The position numbers were made by a program, and so were the translations under genes. Below, in pieces: positions 1 through 6,351 of a DNA stretch of 6,351 nucleotides. Position 1 is the stretch's first letter. Each line of letters begins with the position of its first letter. The notes beneath the pieces were generated by a model. The model was not told where the DNA came from, did no database searches, and was given only the letters and a program-made list of their open reading frames with translations. Origin of the DNA: Clostridia bacterium (lineage in GTDB: Bacteria > Bacillota_A > Clostridia > Oscillospirales > Acutalibacteraceae); the NCBI GenBank assembly GCA_017549665.1, contig JAFYUD010000097.1, positions 1 to 6,351 on the forward strand. Reading direction: 5' to 3'.

Positions 1-1233
1 GCCGTGAGGCCAGGGTGAAGCATAATATGCAAGGAAAGGCTCGTCTGCCTGAGCTTTTTCAGTAATCCATTCAGTGATTTCATCGTGAATCCACTTTGTA
101 GCCATGCTCTGATCCGTAAGCTCGTCAGTGCCGTGGACAATTTCCCACTCACCGTTTTCCTCGGTAACATGATAGAAGGGAGTCATATCATTTACATGGT
201 GGCTTCCGTAGAAATAGTCAAAGCCCTGATTTGTGGGCAGATATTCACCGTAATCACCAAGATGCCATTTGCCGAATGCACCTGTTGCGTATCCTGCTGC
301 CTTGAATGTTTCTGCAAATGTGATTTCATCCCCAAGCATACCGTCAGCGTTGTTGCCCATTTCAATTGAATTGAAAATTCTTGTTGATGCAAAGGGTGAA
401 AGTGTATCAACTGTGGGGTAGATAACATTGTCAGCATAGCCACGGTAGGGGTATCTGCCTGTAAGTGCTGCAAAACGTGCAGGTGAGCATACTGAATATG
501 CAGAATAGAAATTTGTGAGATTAAGACCGTTTTTACCGATTGAATCGATGTTGGGTGTGTCATAGATTGCACCGTTGAGTGAAACGTCACCGTAACCAAG
601 GTCATCCATCATAATGAAAAGCACGTTGGGATTGTTGCCGGATGTATTCTTGTCAACACCCTTGAGATAGTCGTCCTGACCATCCCAGAGCCTTTCTGTG
701 TTGGGCTTTGAACGAAGATTCATTGTAAGTACATAAAATACGCTTGTGCCCACAAGGAGAATACTCATAACGGCTGAAAGTGTTTTTTTTGCACAATCCT
801 TGCAGAAATCTTTCTTTGCAACGAAGAAAAGACCCCACAGTGACAGTGCAGAGGGGAGCACGAGAATGAGATTGCCGAGAAGTCGTGTGAAGAAATTACC
901 TTCACCTGTAAGCAACGGATGCTCAGTACTTGCAAAGCTTGCAAGACCCGATGTGAATGCTCCGAAGCCCGCATCTGCGCCCCATATCACGTAATATACA
1001 ACTATGCCGAGAGATGCCGCAGCATAGCCGAAAATCATAGGTGCATAAACCTTGTTTTTGATGATAAGACTCAATACGATAACTGCAGAAATGATGCAGC
1101 AGTATGCAACAGAAACAACTGCAACTATATTAAGTCTGAGAATCCATGTGGCAAGCATCAGTCCGAGACCGATTACCATAAGAATAAGCGGTAAAACCTT
1201 TTTACCTGTATCAAGTTCGATTTTCTTTTTCAT
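1..1233 (-). CDS. Membrane-anchored arylsulfatase (formylglycine type), C-terminus cut by window edge
   Basis: Partial gene: 411 codons are open from the ATG at 1233 to the window edge. Seen: residues 1-171 carry five hydrophobic segments (about 13-32, 35-58, 63-84, 119-139, 151-171). Charges fit the positive-inside rule (KKK at the N-terminus, KNK at 59-61, KKDFCKDCAKK in the third inner loop), so the catalytic part faces outward. The sulfatase domain begins near 202 with NVLFIMMDDLGYGD (metal ligands D210, D211), then CSPAR (C249-R253) and LTGR (257-260), then GKWHLG (K322, H324) and SPWPHG (H410). C249 in C-x-P-x-R is the residue converted to formylglycine in sulfatases; an anaerobe would need a radical-SAM maturase (anSME), which is not in this window. 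The family hydrolyses sulfate esters; the substrate cannot be read from the sequence. The remaining Asp/Asn metal ligands should lie in the missing part. The SD (AAGGAG, 1242-1247) is well spaced from the ATG. The gene follows the M3 peptidase by 25 nt, so it is probably cotranscribed. Family is firm, substrate unknown. Confidence 0.93.
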   Translation of the reverse strand, partial: MKKKIELDTGKKVLPLILMVIGLGLMLATWILRLNIVAVVSVAYCCIISAVIVLSLIIKNKVYAPMIFGYAAASLGIVVYYVIWGADAGFGAFTSGLASFASTEHPLLTGEGNFFTRLLGNLILVLPSALSLWGLFFVAKKDFCKDCAKKTLSAVMSILLVGTSVFYVLTMNLRSKPNTERLWDGQDDYLKGVDKNTSGNNPNVLFIMMDDLGYGDVSLNGAIYDTPNIDSIGKNGLNLTNFYSAYSVCSPARFAALTGRYPYRGYADNVIYPTVDTLSPFASTRIFNSIEMGNNADGMLGDEITFAETFKAAGYATGAFGKWHLGDYGEYLPTNQGFDYFYGSHHVNDMTPFYHVTEENGEWEIVHGTDELTDQSMATKWIHDEITEWITEKAQADEPFLAYYASPWPHG

Positions 1234-1240
1234 GAGTTTC

Positions 1241-1248
1241 TCTCCTTA
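1241..1248 (-). promoter_or_regulatory. Ribosome binding site of the sulfatase gene
   Basis: The minus strand reads TAAGGAGA, ending about 7 nt before the ATG at 1233. It fixes the start at MKKKIELD, immediately before the first membrane segment, and lies in the 25-nt gap after the peptidase stop codon. Confidence 0.8.
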
Positions 1249-1258
1249 GATTGTTGTA

Positions 1259-2938
1259 TTACAATTCAGATGCAATTTTCATTACATTTTCAGCAAGCTT
1301 TTCGAGTGCACCGTCTTCAAAGGGTGATGCAATACCTGCTTCTTCAACAAGCTGACCGAAAGGCTGAGTGCCGCCCTTGCGGTTGAGCTCAATGTAAGTC
1401 TTCAGTGCATCGTCGTAATTTTCTCTTGATTTTACAAGGAAGCCGAGAGCAACAGTCTGTGCAAGACAGTAGTCGATGTAGTAGAATGGACTTTCGTAGA
1501 TGTGCATCTGATACTGCCAGCGTGTGCCTTCTTCAATGTAGGGGATACCGTCCATGCAGAGATAAGGTCTGTACTCCTTTTCAAGCTGAAGATATGCCTG
1601 CTTTCTCTCTTCGGGTGTATATTCGGGATGCTCATAAATAATATGCTGGAATTCGTCAACGATAACACCGTAAGGAATGAAGCTGAGCGCATCGAGAAGA
1701 TGCTTCTTTCTGTATCTGTCTGCATCGTCACCGAAGAATTTGTCCATGTATTTCCAACAGAGAAATTCCATACTCATTGAATGGCACTCTGCAGTTTCCA
1801 TTCCGCCAACGTCAAGCTCCTCGTCACCGTATCTGAAAACATTGTCAGCGGCAAATGCGTGACCGAATTCGTGAGTGATAACGTCTATATCACCTGTTGT
1901 GCCGTTGAAGTTTGCAAGGATAAACGGCTGTTTGTAGTTTGCAAAGCTGGTACAGTAGCCGCCGCCCCATTTGTTGGGTCTTGCAAATACGTCAAACGCC
2001 TCGTTTTCAATCATTTCCTTCATGAATCTGCCCGTGTCGGGAGACATATCGTCGTACATTTCCTGAGCCTTTCTGAATATAAGCTCAGCGTCGCTGTCAG
2101 GCTTGGGGACGGGGCCTGAAAAATAGATTGAATTATCGTAAAACATCACTTTGTCATAACCGAGTTCTTTTGCGATGCTCTTTTTAAGCTCAGAAATGCA
2201 GGGGACAAGATACTTTTTGACATTTTCACGGAAGGTTTTTATCATTTCCGGAGTGTAATCCGTTCTTCCCATACGGTAGTAGCCCATTTCTACGAAGTTT
2301 TCGTAACCCATTTTCTTTGCCATAGCGTCACGGATTTTAACGAGACGGTCGAAAATGTCGTCAAAAGTTTCTGCATGCTTCTTCATTCCGTTACCCAGAG
2401 CTTCAACCGCAGCTTTTCTTATTTCTCTGTCTTCGTTTTCAAAATAACCTCTTAAAACAGAAAGCGGCATTTCCTTCCCGTCAAATTCAAATGTAAGACC
2501 CGACATGAATTGTGAATACTCCGTCACAACCGTATTTTCCTGCTGAGATTCAGCCGTAATGCACGGGTCAAAAGACTTTTTCTGATAGTCAAGCTTTCTG
2601 AAAATCTGAGGATTCATCTTCTTTTCAGCTTCTTCTCTGTAAGGAGAGGAAAGCATGATGTCTGCATATTCTGTGAAAAGCTCAGAGAAAAGAGGCCCGT
2701 TGTTGTCGTAATAATCCATCTCAGCCTGATAGAATTCATCGGCAGTATTGAGAGTGAAACGGCAGTTTGCAAGAGATGCTGCAGTGCTGTAATCCTTCAT
2801 CATCGTTATGGCGTATTCTCTCGCATTTATCAGCTCGTCACCGTTTGTTGCATTTTTTGCTGCATTGCGGAAAAGCTCAAACTGCTGACGGCCTTCCTCA
2901 ATTGTATATCTTTTATAGGGTATCTGTGAAACTTTCAT
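1259..2938 (-). CDS. M3 family oligoendopeptidase (PepF-like zinc metallopeptidase)
   Basis: A complete 559-aa protein, close to the usual length of the clostridial M3 oligoendopeptidases of about 560 aa. It should be cytosolic and cleave short peptides: no signal peptide or membrane segment is visible with the chosen start. Seen: the zinc motif HEFGH at 356-360 (H356, catalytic E357, H360) and the third ligand E384 in AECHSMSMEF, 24 residues later, which aligns with the E502/E509 region of thimet oligopeptidase. The Tyr-rich tail YYIDYCLAQ (486-494) and the GTRWQYQMHIYESPFYY stretch (471-487) match the substrate-closing C-terminal part of the family. The start at 2938 has GGAG 8 nt upstream. 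An in-frame ATG at 3010 would add 24 residues, but it lies upstream of a good promoter at 2958-2986 and inside the neighbouring operator, so it is rejected. The sulfatase gene follows 25 nt downstream. The family assignment is secure; the natural peptide substrate is unknown. Confidence 0.95.
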   Translation of the reverse strand: MKVSQIPYKRYTIEEGRQQFELFRNAAKNATNGDELINAREYAITMMKDYSTAASLANCRFTLNTADEFYQAEMDYYDNNGPLFSELFTEYADIMLSSPYREEAEKKMNPQIFRKLDYQKKSFDPCITAESQQENTVVTEYSQFMSGLTFEFDGKEMPLSVLRGYFENEDREIRKAAVEALGNGMKKHAETFDDIFDRLVKIRDAMAKKMGYENFVEMGYYRMGRTDYTPEMIKTFRENVKKYLVPCISELKKSIAKELGYDKVMFYDNSIYFSGPVPKPDSDAELIFRKAQEMYDDMSPDTGRFMKEMIENEAFDVFARPNKWGGGYCTSFANYKQPFILANFNGTTGDIDVITHEFGHAFAADNVFRYGDEELDVGGMETAECHSMSMEFLCWKYMDKFFGDDADRYRKKHLLDALSFIPYGVIVDEFQHIIYEHPEYTPEERKQAYLQLEKEYRPYLCMDGIPYIEEGTRWQYQMHIYESPFYYIDYCLAQTVALGFLVKSRENYDDALKTYIELNRKGGTQPFGQLVEEAGIASPFEDGALEKLAENVMKIASEL

Positions 2939-2946
2939 TAAATCAA

Positions 2947-2950
2947 CTCC
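2947..2950 (-). promoter_or_regulatory. Ribosome binding site deciding the peptidase start
   Basis: GGAG on the minus strand, 8 nt before the ATG at 2938. It supports the 559-aa start over the 24-residue longer reading from 3010. Given the promoter just upstream, the mRNA leader would be only about 13 nt, with this site almost at its 5' end. Confidence 0.7.
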
Positions 2951-2957
2951 GTTTATC

Positions 2958-2986
2958 ATTCTATCACAGTTGAAAAGAATTATCAA
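2958..2986 (-). promoter_or_regulatory. Predicted sigma-A-type promoter for peptidase-sulfatase unit
   Basis: On the minus strand, -35 TTGATA (2986-2981) and -10 TAGAAT (2963-2958) are separated by exactly 17 bp. Transcription would start near 2951. Its -35 lies about 17 bp from the -35 of the divergent arsR promoter, so the two polymerase sites adjoin back to back. Confidence 0.7.
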
Positions 2987-3003
2987 TAAATATAGGAAAA
3001 CTC

Positions 3004-3033
3004 TTGACATTTGAATGATTGTTCAAGTATAAT
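3004..3033 (+). promoter_or_regulatory. Predicted sigma-A-type promoter for the arsR metal-efflux operon
   Basis: A perfect -35 TTGACA (3004-3009) and a perfect -10 TATAAT (3028-3033) are separated by 18 bp. Transcription would start near 3040, giving a leader of about 35 nt before the arsR ATG. The spacer is occupied by the first operator-like inverted repeat and the start site by the second. This is what is expected of a strong promoter held off by a repressor. Confidence 0.85.
3007..3026. promoter_or_regulatory. Operator-like element 1 (ArsR/CadC type)
   Basis: The element fits ACATTTGAAYGRTTGTTCAA and contains the inverted repeat TTGAA-N6-TTCAA at 3011-3026. It fills the spacer between the -35 and -10 of the arsR promoter. 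ArsR/SmtB repressors are known to bind imperfect 12-2-12 type palindromes overlapping their own promoters, so autoregulation by the adjacent regulator is the natural reading. Binding itself is inferred. Confidence 0.8.
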
Positions 3034-3053
3034 ACATTTGAACGGTTGTTCAA
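3034..3053. promoter_or_regulatory. Operator-like element 2 (ArsR/CadC type)
   Basis: A second copy of the same 20-bp element with two differences (3043 and 3045), 27 bp downstream of the first. Its inverted repeat TTGAA-N6-TTCAA spans 3038-3053 and covers the predicted transcription start. An additional half-site, CTGTTCAA (3054-3061), follows immediately and abuts the SD. Confidence 0.78.
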
Positions 3054-3059
3054 CTGTTC

Positions 3060-3068
3060 AAAGGAGGT
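3060..3068 (+). promoter_or_regulatory. Strong ribosome binding site of arsR, abutting an operator half-site
   Basis: AAAGGAGGT is a near-perfect anti-SD match, 6-7 nt before the ATG at 3075. Its first bases are shared with the third TTCAA half-site (3057-3061). Confidence 0.85.
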
Positions 3069-3074
3069 AATATT

Positions 3075-3437
3075 ATGGATTTGCATCAGCACAGTGAAGT
3101 GTGTGAATGTGAGTATGTACACAGTGAAGTGGTAAATCATGTCAGGGAAGTTATGGAAGATACGGAAGTGCTTTATGCATTGTCTGACTTTTTCAAGGTT
3201 ATCAGTGACAGCACACGAATGCGTATTCTTGCTGCCCTTGACAGCGGAGAAATGTGTGTCTGCGACCTTTCCGAGCTTCTTGATATGACAATTTCGGCTA
3301 TTTCTCATCAGCTTAAAGTATTGAAGGAGGCACATCTTGTAAAGTCAAGGCGTGATGGTAAGAATGTATATTATTCTCTTGAAGATGACCATGTAAGACT
3401 CATTATTGAAATGGGTATAGCACATATAAAAGAATAA
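3075..3437 (+). CDS. CadC-like ArsR/SmtB family metal-sensing repressor
   Basis: A 120-aa winged-helix repressor expected to bind operator DNA as a dimer and to let go when it binds Cd, Pb or Zn. Seen: the core runs from LSDFFKVISDSTRMRILAAL (about 36-55), through the metal motif MCVCDL (60-65), to the recognition helix TISAISHQLKVLKEAHLV (72-89) and the wing RRDGKNVYYSL (92-102). Compared with staphylococcal CadC, the alpha3N thiolate site is present as C61 and C63 with N-terminal C10 and C12, and the alpha5 site as D104, H106, H117 and E120, with the CadC spacing. E120 is the last residue. The N-terminal pair is C-x-C rather than the C-x3-C of CadC, and H4 and H6 lie nearby. It is the first gene of the operon and follows two operator-like repeats, so it probably represses itself and the efflux genes. 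The family is certain; the exact metal preference is inferred. Confidence 0.95.
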   Translation: MDLHQHSEVCECEYVHSEVVNHVREVMEDTEVLYALSDFFKVISDSTRMRILAALDSGEMCVCDLSELLDMTISAISHQLKVLKEAHLVKSRRDGKNVYYSLEDDHVRLIIEMGIAHIKE

Positions 3438-3440
3438 AAG

Positions 3441-3446
3441 TGAGGT
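3441..3446 (+). promoter_or_regulatory. Ribosome binding site of the HMA protein gene
   Basis: TGAGGT, 8 nt before the ATG at 3455 and within the 17-nt gap after the arsR stop codon. Confidence 0.65.
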
Positions 3447-3454
3447 AAACAGAT

Positions 3455-3676
3455 ATGATTAAAAAGATTAAGCTTATTGATTTGTGCTGTGCGAACTGTG
3501 CGGCAAAAATTGAGGAAAAGACTTCAAAGCTTGACGGTGTGAATTCCGTAACAGTAAATTTCCTTACAGAGAAAATGATTCTTGATCTGGACGAAGCAAA
3601 GCTTGATGCTGTTCTGTCAGGTGTTGAAAAAATCGTTCATAAAATCGAGCCTGATGTAAAGATTGAATATATCTGA
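3455..3676 (+). CDS. Free-standing heavy-metal-associated (HMA) domain protein
   Basis: A 73-aa protein consisting of one HMA (ferredoxin-like beta-alpha-beta-beta-alpha-beta) domain with no membrane segment. It probably binds a soft metal ion in the cytoplasm and buffers it or passes it to the ATPase encoded next. Seen: the metal loop is C11-C12-A-N-C15, a C-x-x-C motif with an extra cysteine in front and D9 close by. It is followed by the family's AAKIEEKTSKLDGV helix and SVTVNF strand (31-36), and then the second half of the fold to VKIEYI. It resembles the N-terminal domain that is normally fused to ZntA/CadA ATPases, here encoded separately. The stop at 3674-3676 and the frame change to the ATPase show that the two are not simply one gene read wrongly. 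It lies 17 nt after arsR and 10 nt before the ATPase start. The metal handled and a true chaperone role are inferred. Confidence 0.9.
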   Translation: MIKKIKLIDLCCANCAAKIEEKTSKLDGVNSVTVNFLTEKMILDLDEAKLDAVLSGVEKIVHKIEPDVKIEYI

Positions 3677-3678
3677 GG
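3675..3678 (+). promoter_or_regulatory. Ribosome binding site supporting a GTG start for the ATPase
   Basis: GAGG overlaps the stop codon of the HMA gene and ends 8 nt before the GTG at 3687. This spacing supports GTG as the start. Translation of the two genes is probably coupled. Confidence 0.6.
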
Positions 3679-3686
3679 CGGTCTGA

Positions 3687-5516
3687 GTGAAAAAGAAGCT
3701 TATTGAAATAATTATCGGCGCAGTACTTCTTGTTGCTGCGATTTTACTGCCTGAAAATCTCAGCATCGTAAGTCTTATTCTCTATATTGCGGCTTTTGCG
3801 GTCAGTGGCTTTGTGGTTGTCAGAAGTGCATTCAGAGGTATTTTCAAGGGAAATGTTTTCAATGAAAATACCCTTATGGTCATTGCCGCCGTGGGTGCTT
3901 TTATCATCGGTGAATATACGGAAGCTGTATTCGTTGTGATATTTTACCGTGTAGGTGAGCTGTTTGAGGACTACGCTGTTAAAAAATCGAGAAAGTCCAT
4001 AAAGGAAGTCATGAGCATCTGTCCCGATTACGCAAATCTTGTAAGGGACGGGAAAACAGAGCGTGTTGACCCCGATGAAGTGAGCATAGGTGATATTATT
4101 TCCGTAGCGGCAGGCGAAAGGGTGCCTCTTGACGGCATTGTCGTAAGCGGAAGCTCATACGTTGACACAAGCGCTCTGACGGGCGAATCGGTACCCCGTC
4201 AGGTGACGGAAAATGATGAAATTCTCAGCGGCTGTATAAACGGAAACGGTGTACTGACAATCAGAGTCACAAAGACTTTTGAAGATTCAACCGTCAGCCG
4301 TATTCTTGACCTTGTGGAAACTGCATCTGCACGCAAGTCAACGTCAGAAAAATTCATCACTAAATTTGCAAAATATTATACCCCTGCAGTGCTTGTTGCA
4401 GCGCTTCTTCTTGCTGTGTTACCGCCACTTTTTATTGAGGGGGCAGCATTTCAGGATTATATTTACAGAGCATTGTCATTTCTTGTTGTGTCATGTCCGT
4501 GTGCTCTTGTTATTTCGGTACCACTTAGCTTTTTCGGCGGAATCGGCGGTGCGGCAAAGCAGGGTATACTTATCAAAGGCGGCAATTTCCTTGAATTACT
4601 TTCAAAAGCAGATTCGGCAGTATTTGATAAAACCGGCACTCTGACAAAAGGCGTGTTTGCAGTGAATCGGATAAATGTTGTTGGCTGCAATGAAAATGAA
4701 TTGCTTGAATGGGCGGCATACTGTGAAAATGTATCATCGCATCCCGTTGCAAAAGCGCTGAGAAACGCATACGGTCAGGATATTGATGTCAGTCGTATCA
4801 CAGAGGCTTCGGAGCTTTCGGGCTATGGTGTTTCGGCTGTGATTGACGGTAAAACTGTCCTTGCAGGTAATGCAAAATTAATGGAGAAAAACGGGATTGA
4901 ATATATCTGTGAAAAATCGGGTACAGTGGTTTATATTGCTGTTGACAATTCCTTCAAAGGCAGTATAATTATATCTGATGAGATAAAAGAGGATGCATCA
5001 TTCCTTGTGTCTGAGCTTAAAAACAACGGAATTGTACGCACATTCATGCTTACAGGTGACAATAAAAAGAATGCTGAAGAAACGGCAGAAAAAACAGGAA
5101 TTGACGCATTTTACAGTGAATTGTTACCCCATGAAAAAGTGGAAAAGCTTGAGGAAATCATGGCTGACGCAAAAGGGAAAACAGTTTATGTGGGTGACGG
5201 AATCAATGATGCTCCCGTCCTTGCAAGAGCAGATGTGGGTATCGCAATGGGTGCTTTAGGTTCAGATGCTGCAATCGAAGCGGCAGATGTTGTTATCATG
5301 AATGATGAGCCGTCAAAGATTGTCACTGCTTTGAAGACGGCACGCAAAACCATGAATATAGCAAGGGAAAATATCGTGTTTTCAATTGCGGTGAAGCTTA
5401 TAATTCTCGTGCTTTGTTCCCTTGATATCGTGGGTATCGGCGTTGCAGTTTTTGGTGACGTAGGCGTAATGGTGCTTGCTGTTCTCAACTCATTCAGAGC
5501 ATTAAAGGAGAAATAA
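3687..5516 (+). CDS. P1B-2 type Zn/Cd/Pb-exporting P-type ATPase lacking an N-terminal HMA domain
   Basis: A 609-aa membrane pump of the ZntA/CadA group, exporting divalent soft metals at the cost of ATP. Seen, in order: membrane segments begin at residue 7 with no metal domain before them; actuator TGES (165-168); the metal-site segment [17 protein letters not shown] with C270-P271-C272; phosphorylation site DKTGT with D314; the ATP-binding HP (H352-P353); TGDN (456-459); the hinge GDGINDAP (503-510). In the last two helices, K570 and the D591-V-G593 motif are the residues typical of the Zn/Cd/Pb subgroup, and copper-pump signatures are absent. The usual family length is about 700 aa with a fused HMA domain; the shortfall is explained by the separate HMA gene just upstream. 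It starts with GTG, 10 nt after that gene, with GAGG at 3675-3678. The nfo start lies 2 nt beyond the stop codon. No damage to any core motif is seen. Which of Zn, Cd or Pb is the main substrate is not decidable here. Confidence 0.96.
5504..5510 (+). promoter_or_regulatory. Ribosome binding site of nfo, inside the ATPase coding end
   Basis: AAAGGAG lies within the last codons of the ATPase gene, 8 nt before the nfo ATG at 5519. No promoter-like sequence was seen between the genes, so nfo expression would depend on the metal operon transcript or on a promoter within the ATPase gene. Confidence 0.75.
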
Positions 5517-5518
5517 TT

Positions 5519-6351
5519 ATGTTATATATCGGTTGTCATTTATCTGCGTCAAAGGGCTTTCTTGCAATGGGAAAGCAGGCTCACGCAATCGGCGCAAATA
5601 CATTTCAGTTTTTTACACGTAATCCCAGAGGCGGCGCTGCAAAGGCAATAGACGAAAATGATGTAAAGGCGTATCTTGAGTTTGCGAAGGAGCATGAATT
5701 CGGTAAAATAGTTGCTCACGCACCGTATACTCTCAATGCCTGTGCAGCAGAAGACAGAATCCGTACATTCGCATTTGAAACATTCAGGGATGACCTTGAA
5801 AGAATGGAATATGTTCCGGGGAATTATTATAATTTCCATCCCGGAAGCCATGTAGGTCAGGGGACAGAAAAGGGAATTGAGCTTATTGCTGATGTGCTTA
5901 ATCGTGTCATGTTTCCTGAAATGACCACCACCGTGCTGCTTGAAACTATGTCAGGCAAGGGCAGTGAAGTTGGTTCAAAATTTGAAGAATTAAAGCGCAT
6001 TATTGATAAAACGGAATTAAACGAAAAGTTAGGCGTTTGTTTAGATACTTGCCACGTGTTTGATGCAGGGTACGATATAGTAAACGATTTAGATGGCGTT
6101 TTAAATGAATTTGATAAAATCGTTGGTTTAAACAGGCTTAAAGCCATACATATAAATGATAGTATGAATCCGTTTTCAAGCCACAAAGATAGGCACCAAA
6201 AAATAGGTGAAGGTTATCTTGGCTTAAAGGCGTTTGAAAACTTAATTAACCACCCTAATCTTAAAGATATTCCATTTTTACTTGAAACCCCTAACGAAAT
6301 TGATGGATATAAAAAAGAAATTAGCCTTTTAAAAGATTTATATAGGTTGAC
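5519..6351 (+). CDS. nfo: Endonuclease IV (deoxyribonuclease IV, AP endonuclease), extreme C-terminus cut by window edge
   Basis: The enzyme cuts DNA 5' to abasic sites in base excision repair using a three-metal, mainly zinc, centre in a TIM barrel. 277 residues are readable before the window ends; E. coli Nfo has 285, so little is missing. Seen: all nine metal ligands are present at family spacing, namely H67 (AHAPY), H107 (FHPGSH), E142 ([12 protein letters not shown]), D176 and H179 ([12 protein letters not shown]), H211 (HINDS), D224 and H226 (KDRH), and E256 (LETP). The ATG is 2 nt after the ATPase stop, with AAAGGAG 8 nt upstream. The odd feature is a sharp change within the gene. Up to about 5940 it has about 44% GC and mostly CTT leucine like its neighbours; from about 6001 it has about 32% GC and mostly TTA leucine. 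Frame and motifs are intact across the junction. Identity is secure; the origin of the 3' half is not. Confidence 0.95.
5980..6351. other. Low-GC, TTA-rich segment forming the 3' half of nfo
   Basis: Counted by hand, 6001-6351 has 111 G+C in 351 bases (about 32%), against 186 in 420 (about 44%) for 5521-5940. Leucine codons from residue 158 onward are 12 TTA, 5 CTT and 1 TTG; before that they are 2 TTA, 6 CTT, 1 CTC and 1 CTG. The change begins just after the strongly conserved [12 protein letters not shown] stretch. Either a recombined allele from a more AT-rich relative or a joined contig from another organism would look like this. Confidence 0.7.

Follow-up and report, generated by a model that had tools for sequence, protein, structure and literature searches.

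Contigs that join two genomes have been described from metagenome assembly (PMC3285633, PMC3100316, and PMC4133164). In the accessible part of PMC3285633, chimeric contigs were frequent in simulated complex metagenomes, and shorter contigs showed a higher degree of chimericity; a reading of its flattened table gave chimeric shares of Illumina contigs of 5, 10, and 37% for 10, 100, and 400 simulated genomes. In the same accessible part, few Illumina contigs (0.03 to 4.5%) had less than 95% identity to a genome, which speaks against a chimera in the present case. The accessible part of PMC3100316 named sequence similarity as the main cause of chimeric contigs in simulation. Many of the simulated chimeras described there joined members of the same genus or species, which again speaks against a chimera in the present case, and for two of the four assemblers the chimeras combined organisms that shared a family or a deeper rank. 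The window, that is, the whole 6,351-bp stretch of DNA analyzed here, resembled the contigs in the accessible parts of these three sources: homologues were joined at a conserved stretch, the contig was a short singleton, and the switch lay near the contig end. It differed from them in that its two sources were more distant than in many of the reported cases, and in that its status as a chimera is probable.

The gene carrying the switch was nfo, which encodes endonuclease IV (Nfo, deoxyribonuclease IV; TIGR00587, 3aal). The window protein was like this family in its full-length profile match and family motifs; it differed in that its halves came from two lineages, a combination present in no other Nfo among the matches listed. 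Mosaic alleles produced by introgression in Campylobacter were similar in being two-parent genes with one clean switch (PMC3139442, accessible part). However, the Campylobacter relatives described there were about 15% apart, while the parents of the window gene were about 37–40% apart in DNA, judged from relatives. A narrow search of the literature on mosaic genes and intragenic recombination did not find endonuclease IV among the papers listed. The features of the window were as follows.

Within 1..5518, minus strand: sulfatase-type gene, partial (NCBIfam matches below curated cut-offs)
1259-2938, minus strand: M3 oligoendopeptidase, between the sulfatase-type gene and arsR (NCBIfam match)
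Within 1..5518, plus strand: arsR (NCBIfam match)
3455-3676, plus strand: HMA-domain protein of 73 residues (NCBIfam match)
3687-5516, plus strand: Cd/Zn-type P1B ATPase (NCBIfam match)
5519..5935, plus strand: 5' part of nfo, lineage of P0001/P0002 and L002, L003, L067, and L068 (protein and DNA identity)
5936..5974, plus strand: junction tract of nfo, with the parent switch inside (parent-specific sites, protein mismatches, shared bases)
5975..6351, plus strand: 3' part of nfo, other lineage (P0121 and P0122; genome relative L001) (protein and DNA identity)

The nfo frame was open from 5519 to the contig end at 6351, where it ran off just short of the expected stop; the nfo of L001 ended one residue further. 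The contig ended inside the foreign part of the gene. The window Nfo matched the family profile TIGR00587 over its full length with 303.3 bits (cut-off 129.65), and did not reach the cut-offs of four finer equivalog models (NF002196-NF002199). Seven motifs were kept (HAPY at 67, HPG at 107, LET at 141, DTCH at 176, HIND at 211, KDRH at 223, and LETP at 255) and aligned with the solved homologue 3aal; we take these motifs to hold the metal ligands, a role known from E. coli Nfo. By profile and motifs, the window protein is a predicted endonuclease IV. The window was apparently the whole contig, ending 377 bases past 5974, because its own protein, P0003, sat on one contig of 6351 bases.

The gene order upstream of nfo was compared with that of the relatives. 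L003 carried the sulfatase, arsR, HMA, ATPase, and nfo genes in the same order as the window, with no M3 match, and L002 carried arsR-HMA-ATPase-nfo; by their titles, L002 came from yak cecum and L003 from sheep rectum. L001 matched the window in nfo only, within 14.8 kb. The gene immediately preceding nfo was the best ATPase match (72–73%) in the genomes G002, G003, G265, and G083, while G001 and G302 had their best ATPase match (37 and 35%, respectively) on another contig. The ATPase P0240 was 95% identical to that of the window, and its longest contig had 31345 bases, as did that of the Nfo protein P0001, so that both probably lie on one contig.

Some further observations concerned the upstream genes. 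The HMA metal-binding domain was encoded by a separate 73-residue gene ahead of the P1B ATPase, and L002 and L003 matched both in the same order. The M3 peptidase (1259-2938) had a 77% relative in G002, on another contig, and a weak 26% match in G001; at E 0.001, no match to it was found in G003, G265, G083, or G302. A promoter-like site at 3004-3033 agreed with the consensus in 12 of 12 bases, and its 18-base spacer contained the palindrome TTGAATGATTGTTCAA (3011-3026). A near-copy of this palindrome, TTGAACGGTTGTTCAA, was located at 3038-3053, upstream of arsR. With a pattern written from these two sites themselves, 0.06 matches were expected. The palindromes look like the paired operators of an ArsR-type repressor.

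Composition changed sharply within nfo. The GC change-point fell at base 5974, both when nfo was analyzed and when the segment 3001-6351 was analyzed, and its score in nfo was equalled by 18 of 2000 codon shuffles. The first 153 codons had a GC content of 44.2%, against 31.2% for the final 124. The synonymous-codon change-point was located at 5909, with a score reached by none of 200 synonymous permutations. Among leucine codons, CTT accounted for 6 of 10 before the switch and TTA for 12 of 18 after it. The three other window genes of sufficient length had no 124-codon stretch below 37.4% GC. GC content of the locus was 33.7% in L001, and 43.1 and 43.2% in L002 and L003, respectively.

For comparison, 88 distinct nfo genes drawn from 95 loci were split at the same place. 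In none did GC fall between the halves by as much as the 13.1 points of the window (mean 2.4, sd 2.7), and two equalled or surpassed its TTA shift, so that leucine usage alone is weak evidence for a switch. Composition was considered as sole evidence of a mosaic and found insufficient, since GC also dropped at this point in the nfo of L001, from 37.1 to 31.5%, and the TTA shift was found in 2 of the 88 genes. The initial annotation had reported an abrupt composition and codon switch inside nfo over the span 5940..6351; the change from 44.2 to 31.2% GC and from CTT to TTA, with a drop unmatched in 88 genes, bears this out, and the span is right, with the junction proper at about 5936-5974. It had stated that its view would be refuted if relatives showed this composition change within nfo as well; such relatives were sought and were absent from the 88 nfo genes. 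It was also correct that the protein stays in frame with its active-site motifs, the frame being open to the contig end with all seven motifs present.

Separate searches with the front and back halves of the window Nfo covered about 5.8 billion proteins; 7996 candidates were scored and the best 120 listed for each half. Among the best 120 of the front-half search, P0001 and P0002 were 100% identical to the window through residues 1–152; beyond residue 152, they were only 62% identical. These are Nfo proteins of 275 residues; the longest contig has 31345 bases for P0001 and 8028 bases for P0002. For residues 153–277, the best match among the best 120 of the back-half search was P0121 (ident 91%), whose front was only 68% identical to the window; P0121 is a 278-residue Nfo on a 30686-base contig. 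P0001 had no mismatch with the window in residues 1–152 and 49 in residues 153–277, end gaps counted. P0121 had 43 mismatches in residues 1–135, none in residues 136–152, and 11 in residues 153–277.

The same split was found in a set of 302 rows, which left out 10 of 239 proteins by length, the window protein P0003 itself, and 22 of 95 loci because of a short match, a stop, or minus-strand orientation. Fronts at least 90% identical to that of the window were present in 22 proteins of this set, whose backs were at most 64.2% identical, and backs at least 80% identical were present in 24 proteins, whose fronts were at most 72.1% identical. Some of the loci were one gene fetched twice (e.g., L003 and L064), so that discordance in such rows would go unseen, and the lineage groups were chosen from searches with the window's own halves and not named beforehand. 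Only P0003, which had one member on one contig of 6351 bases, was common to the best 120 of both half-searches, and these listings held no copy of the mosaic on an independent contig. Such singleton status could also be that of a new or rare recombinant. In IMG/VR, no exact match to the 30 bases spanning the junction was found, and none of 12 candidate stretches encoded a relative. Judged by these comparisons, nfo of the window is a two-parent mosaic, and the separate protein searches make this case stronger than composition alone.

The place of the switch was determined from parent-specific sites, scored against four 5' rows (L067, L068, L002, and L003) and one 3' row (L001). Sites were 5'-like up to 5947 and 3'-like from 5974, with one isolated 5'-like site at 5995. 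The best single break fell before 5937 or before 5948 in two scorings, with near-equal breaks over 5927-5965 and 5937-6025. Protein comparison allowed a switch tract of about 51 bases. In 5519-5926, DNA identity was 78–82% to L067, L068, L002, and L003, and 63% to L001; in 5975-6349, it was 80.8% to L001 and 60–63% to the other four.

L001 and L067, as stand-ins for the two lineages, shared 32 identical bases at 5930-5961. The exact runs shared with L001 near the site were 17 bases for L068 and 14 bases for L002, with none of at least 13 bases for L003; these stand-ins are not the DNA of the actual parents. The initial annotation had placed the switch by a conserved stretch, and the location of the junction in conserved sequence agrees with this. 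Out of 3764 nfo gene pairs at most 75% identical in protein, 206 had a longest identical run of at least 21 bases. The midpoint of this run lay in 5939-5968 in 33 of the 206 pairs, the second most frequent 30-base bin, after 5819-5848 (48 of 206); other bins were 6149-6178 (29), 5579-5608 (20), 6029-6058 (20), and 5609-5638 (19). The switch site was therefore one of the likely places for identical runs, and not the likeliest.

Phylogenetic trees were constructed from 76 chosen rows (59 of 238 proteins, 16 of 95 loci, and the window), then from 72 rows without four long branches, and then from 67; all nfo trees were quick trees without bootstrap. In the tree of residues 1–152, the window, P0001, and P0002 fell together in a set of 33 rows (SH-aLRT 99). 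In the tree of residues 153–277, the set containing the window comprised 25 rows, among them P0121-P0124 and L001 (SH-aLRT 95). Forcing the window into the back-half lineage for residues 1–136 cost 83.7 log units (AU p 6e-6), in a test from which five rows had been removed because they did not differ from the window in these residues. Forcing it into the front-half lineage for residues 153–277 cost 90.5 log units (AU p 4e-4). As controls, placement of the front half in its own lineage was not rejected (p 0.52), and the back half and its lineage already formed a single branch (support 87, not starred). Each segment had different best relatives and a placement incompatible with that of the other, a pattern expected of an assembly chimera. 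Separate phylogenies of the two halves had been proposed at the outset as a check; they placed the halves apart, with each wrong placement rejected by the AU test.

The initial annotation had named two options, DNA from an AT-richer relative or an assembly chimera, and both fit a gene whose halves were placed apart, whose 3' lineage was AT-richer, and whose switch lay at a conserved site. It had left the choice open; the evidence now favors the chimera. With a probability of about 85%, the contig is a metagenome assembly chimera, and we infer that the join was made by the assembly software rather than by an event in a cell. Reads from a Clostridia strain whose P0001-type nfo lay behind an arsR-HMA-ATPase operon would have been assembled up to the near-invariant nfo stretch. 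The assembly path would then have crossed into the homologous gene of an AT-richer, P0121/L001-like lineage, and the contig would have halted 377 bases past 5974. Because the fragments would have met at homologous positions, frame and motifs would survive without selection. A chimera explains why the front matches known proteins exactly while the back is foreign, why the switch lies in a near-invariant tract, why the frame is open, why the protein is a singleton, and why the contig ends where it does. Against it stands the length of the longest identical run, 32 bases, found in one of the four available pairs of lineage genomes; many assemblers end with large k-mers, longer than 32 bases.

A true mosaic gene, in which a cell of the P0001 lineage had the 3' part of its nfo replaced from an AT-richer lineage by short-homology recombination at the conserved stretch, is the strongest alternative, though an unlikely one. 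Its product would probably be a working in-frame endonuclease IV, in keeping with the open frame and the seven motifs; however, an intact frame is equally expected of a chimera joined at homologous positions. The junction lay in conserved sequence that genomes of the lineages can share exactly, and recombination at a short identical tract predicts the same junction. Outside the tract, however, the parents were only about 60–63% identical in DNA, judged from available relatives, and they came from different families, that of G001 with 5 available genomes and that of G003 with more than 300. Although P0019, described below, could be a second natural case, the combination in the window was seen once, at a contig end, and the 22 proteins of the 302-row set with fronts at least 90% identical retained their own back half.

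The join might also have been made in the laboratory by template switching at the conserved stretch during PCR or whole-genome amplification, and so have been in the reads before assembly. This would be expected to give the same junction at shared sequence, but rare single molecules would seldom dominate a contig consensus, and such an origin is very improbable. That there is no mosaic, the composition change being natural variation within one nfo lineage, is hardly credible. The GC drop in L001 at the same place and the TTA shift, as large in 2 of 88 nfo genes, are in its favor, but a GC drop as large was found in none of the 88, and the halves differed in nearest relatives and were placed apart, so that the split identities and the AU tests oppose it.

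The 302 rows were also scanned for two-parent structure. The window had the highest gain (38 residues), P0019 the second (23), and the next row 15. Up to residue 155, P0019 did not differ from P0021; after residue 156, the two were 60% identical. P0019 was a singleton on a 1254-base contig, and its parents were other than those of the window. Its optimum break in the scan was at 169–180, within a switch range of residues 155–180 that lay near that of the window but was less sharp; the break is less certain because its nearest back-half relatives were about 76% identical at most. P0019 is probably another assembly chimera. It is improbable that the region coding for LETMxGKGSEVG is a natural site where families of gut Clostridia swap the 3' half of nfo to give working hybrids, with the window and P0019 as independent cases.

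With an assembly chimera as the preferred reading, the hybrid most likely does not correspond to a real gene in any organism, and the sequence past about 5936 is most likely that of a different organism. The early caution that gene context downstream of 5980 should not be trusted was right, as the sequence past about 5936 ought not to be ascribed to the host organism. The hybrid Nfo (P0003) and any downstream context are best kept out of trees and annotation. Nor does a frame that stays open and keeps its motifs prove that a contig is not chimeric, since a join made at homologous conserved codons leaves the frame undisturbed. Were the join real, it would represent recombination between lineages about 37–40% apart in DNA, judged from relatives.
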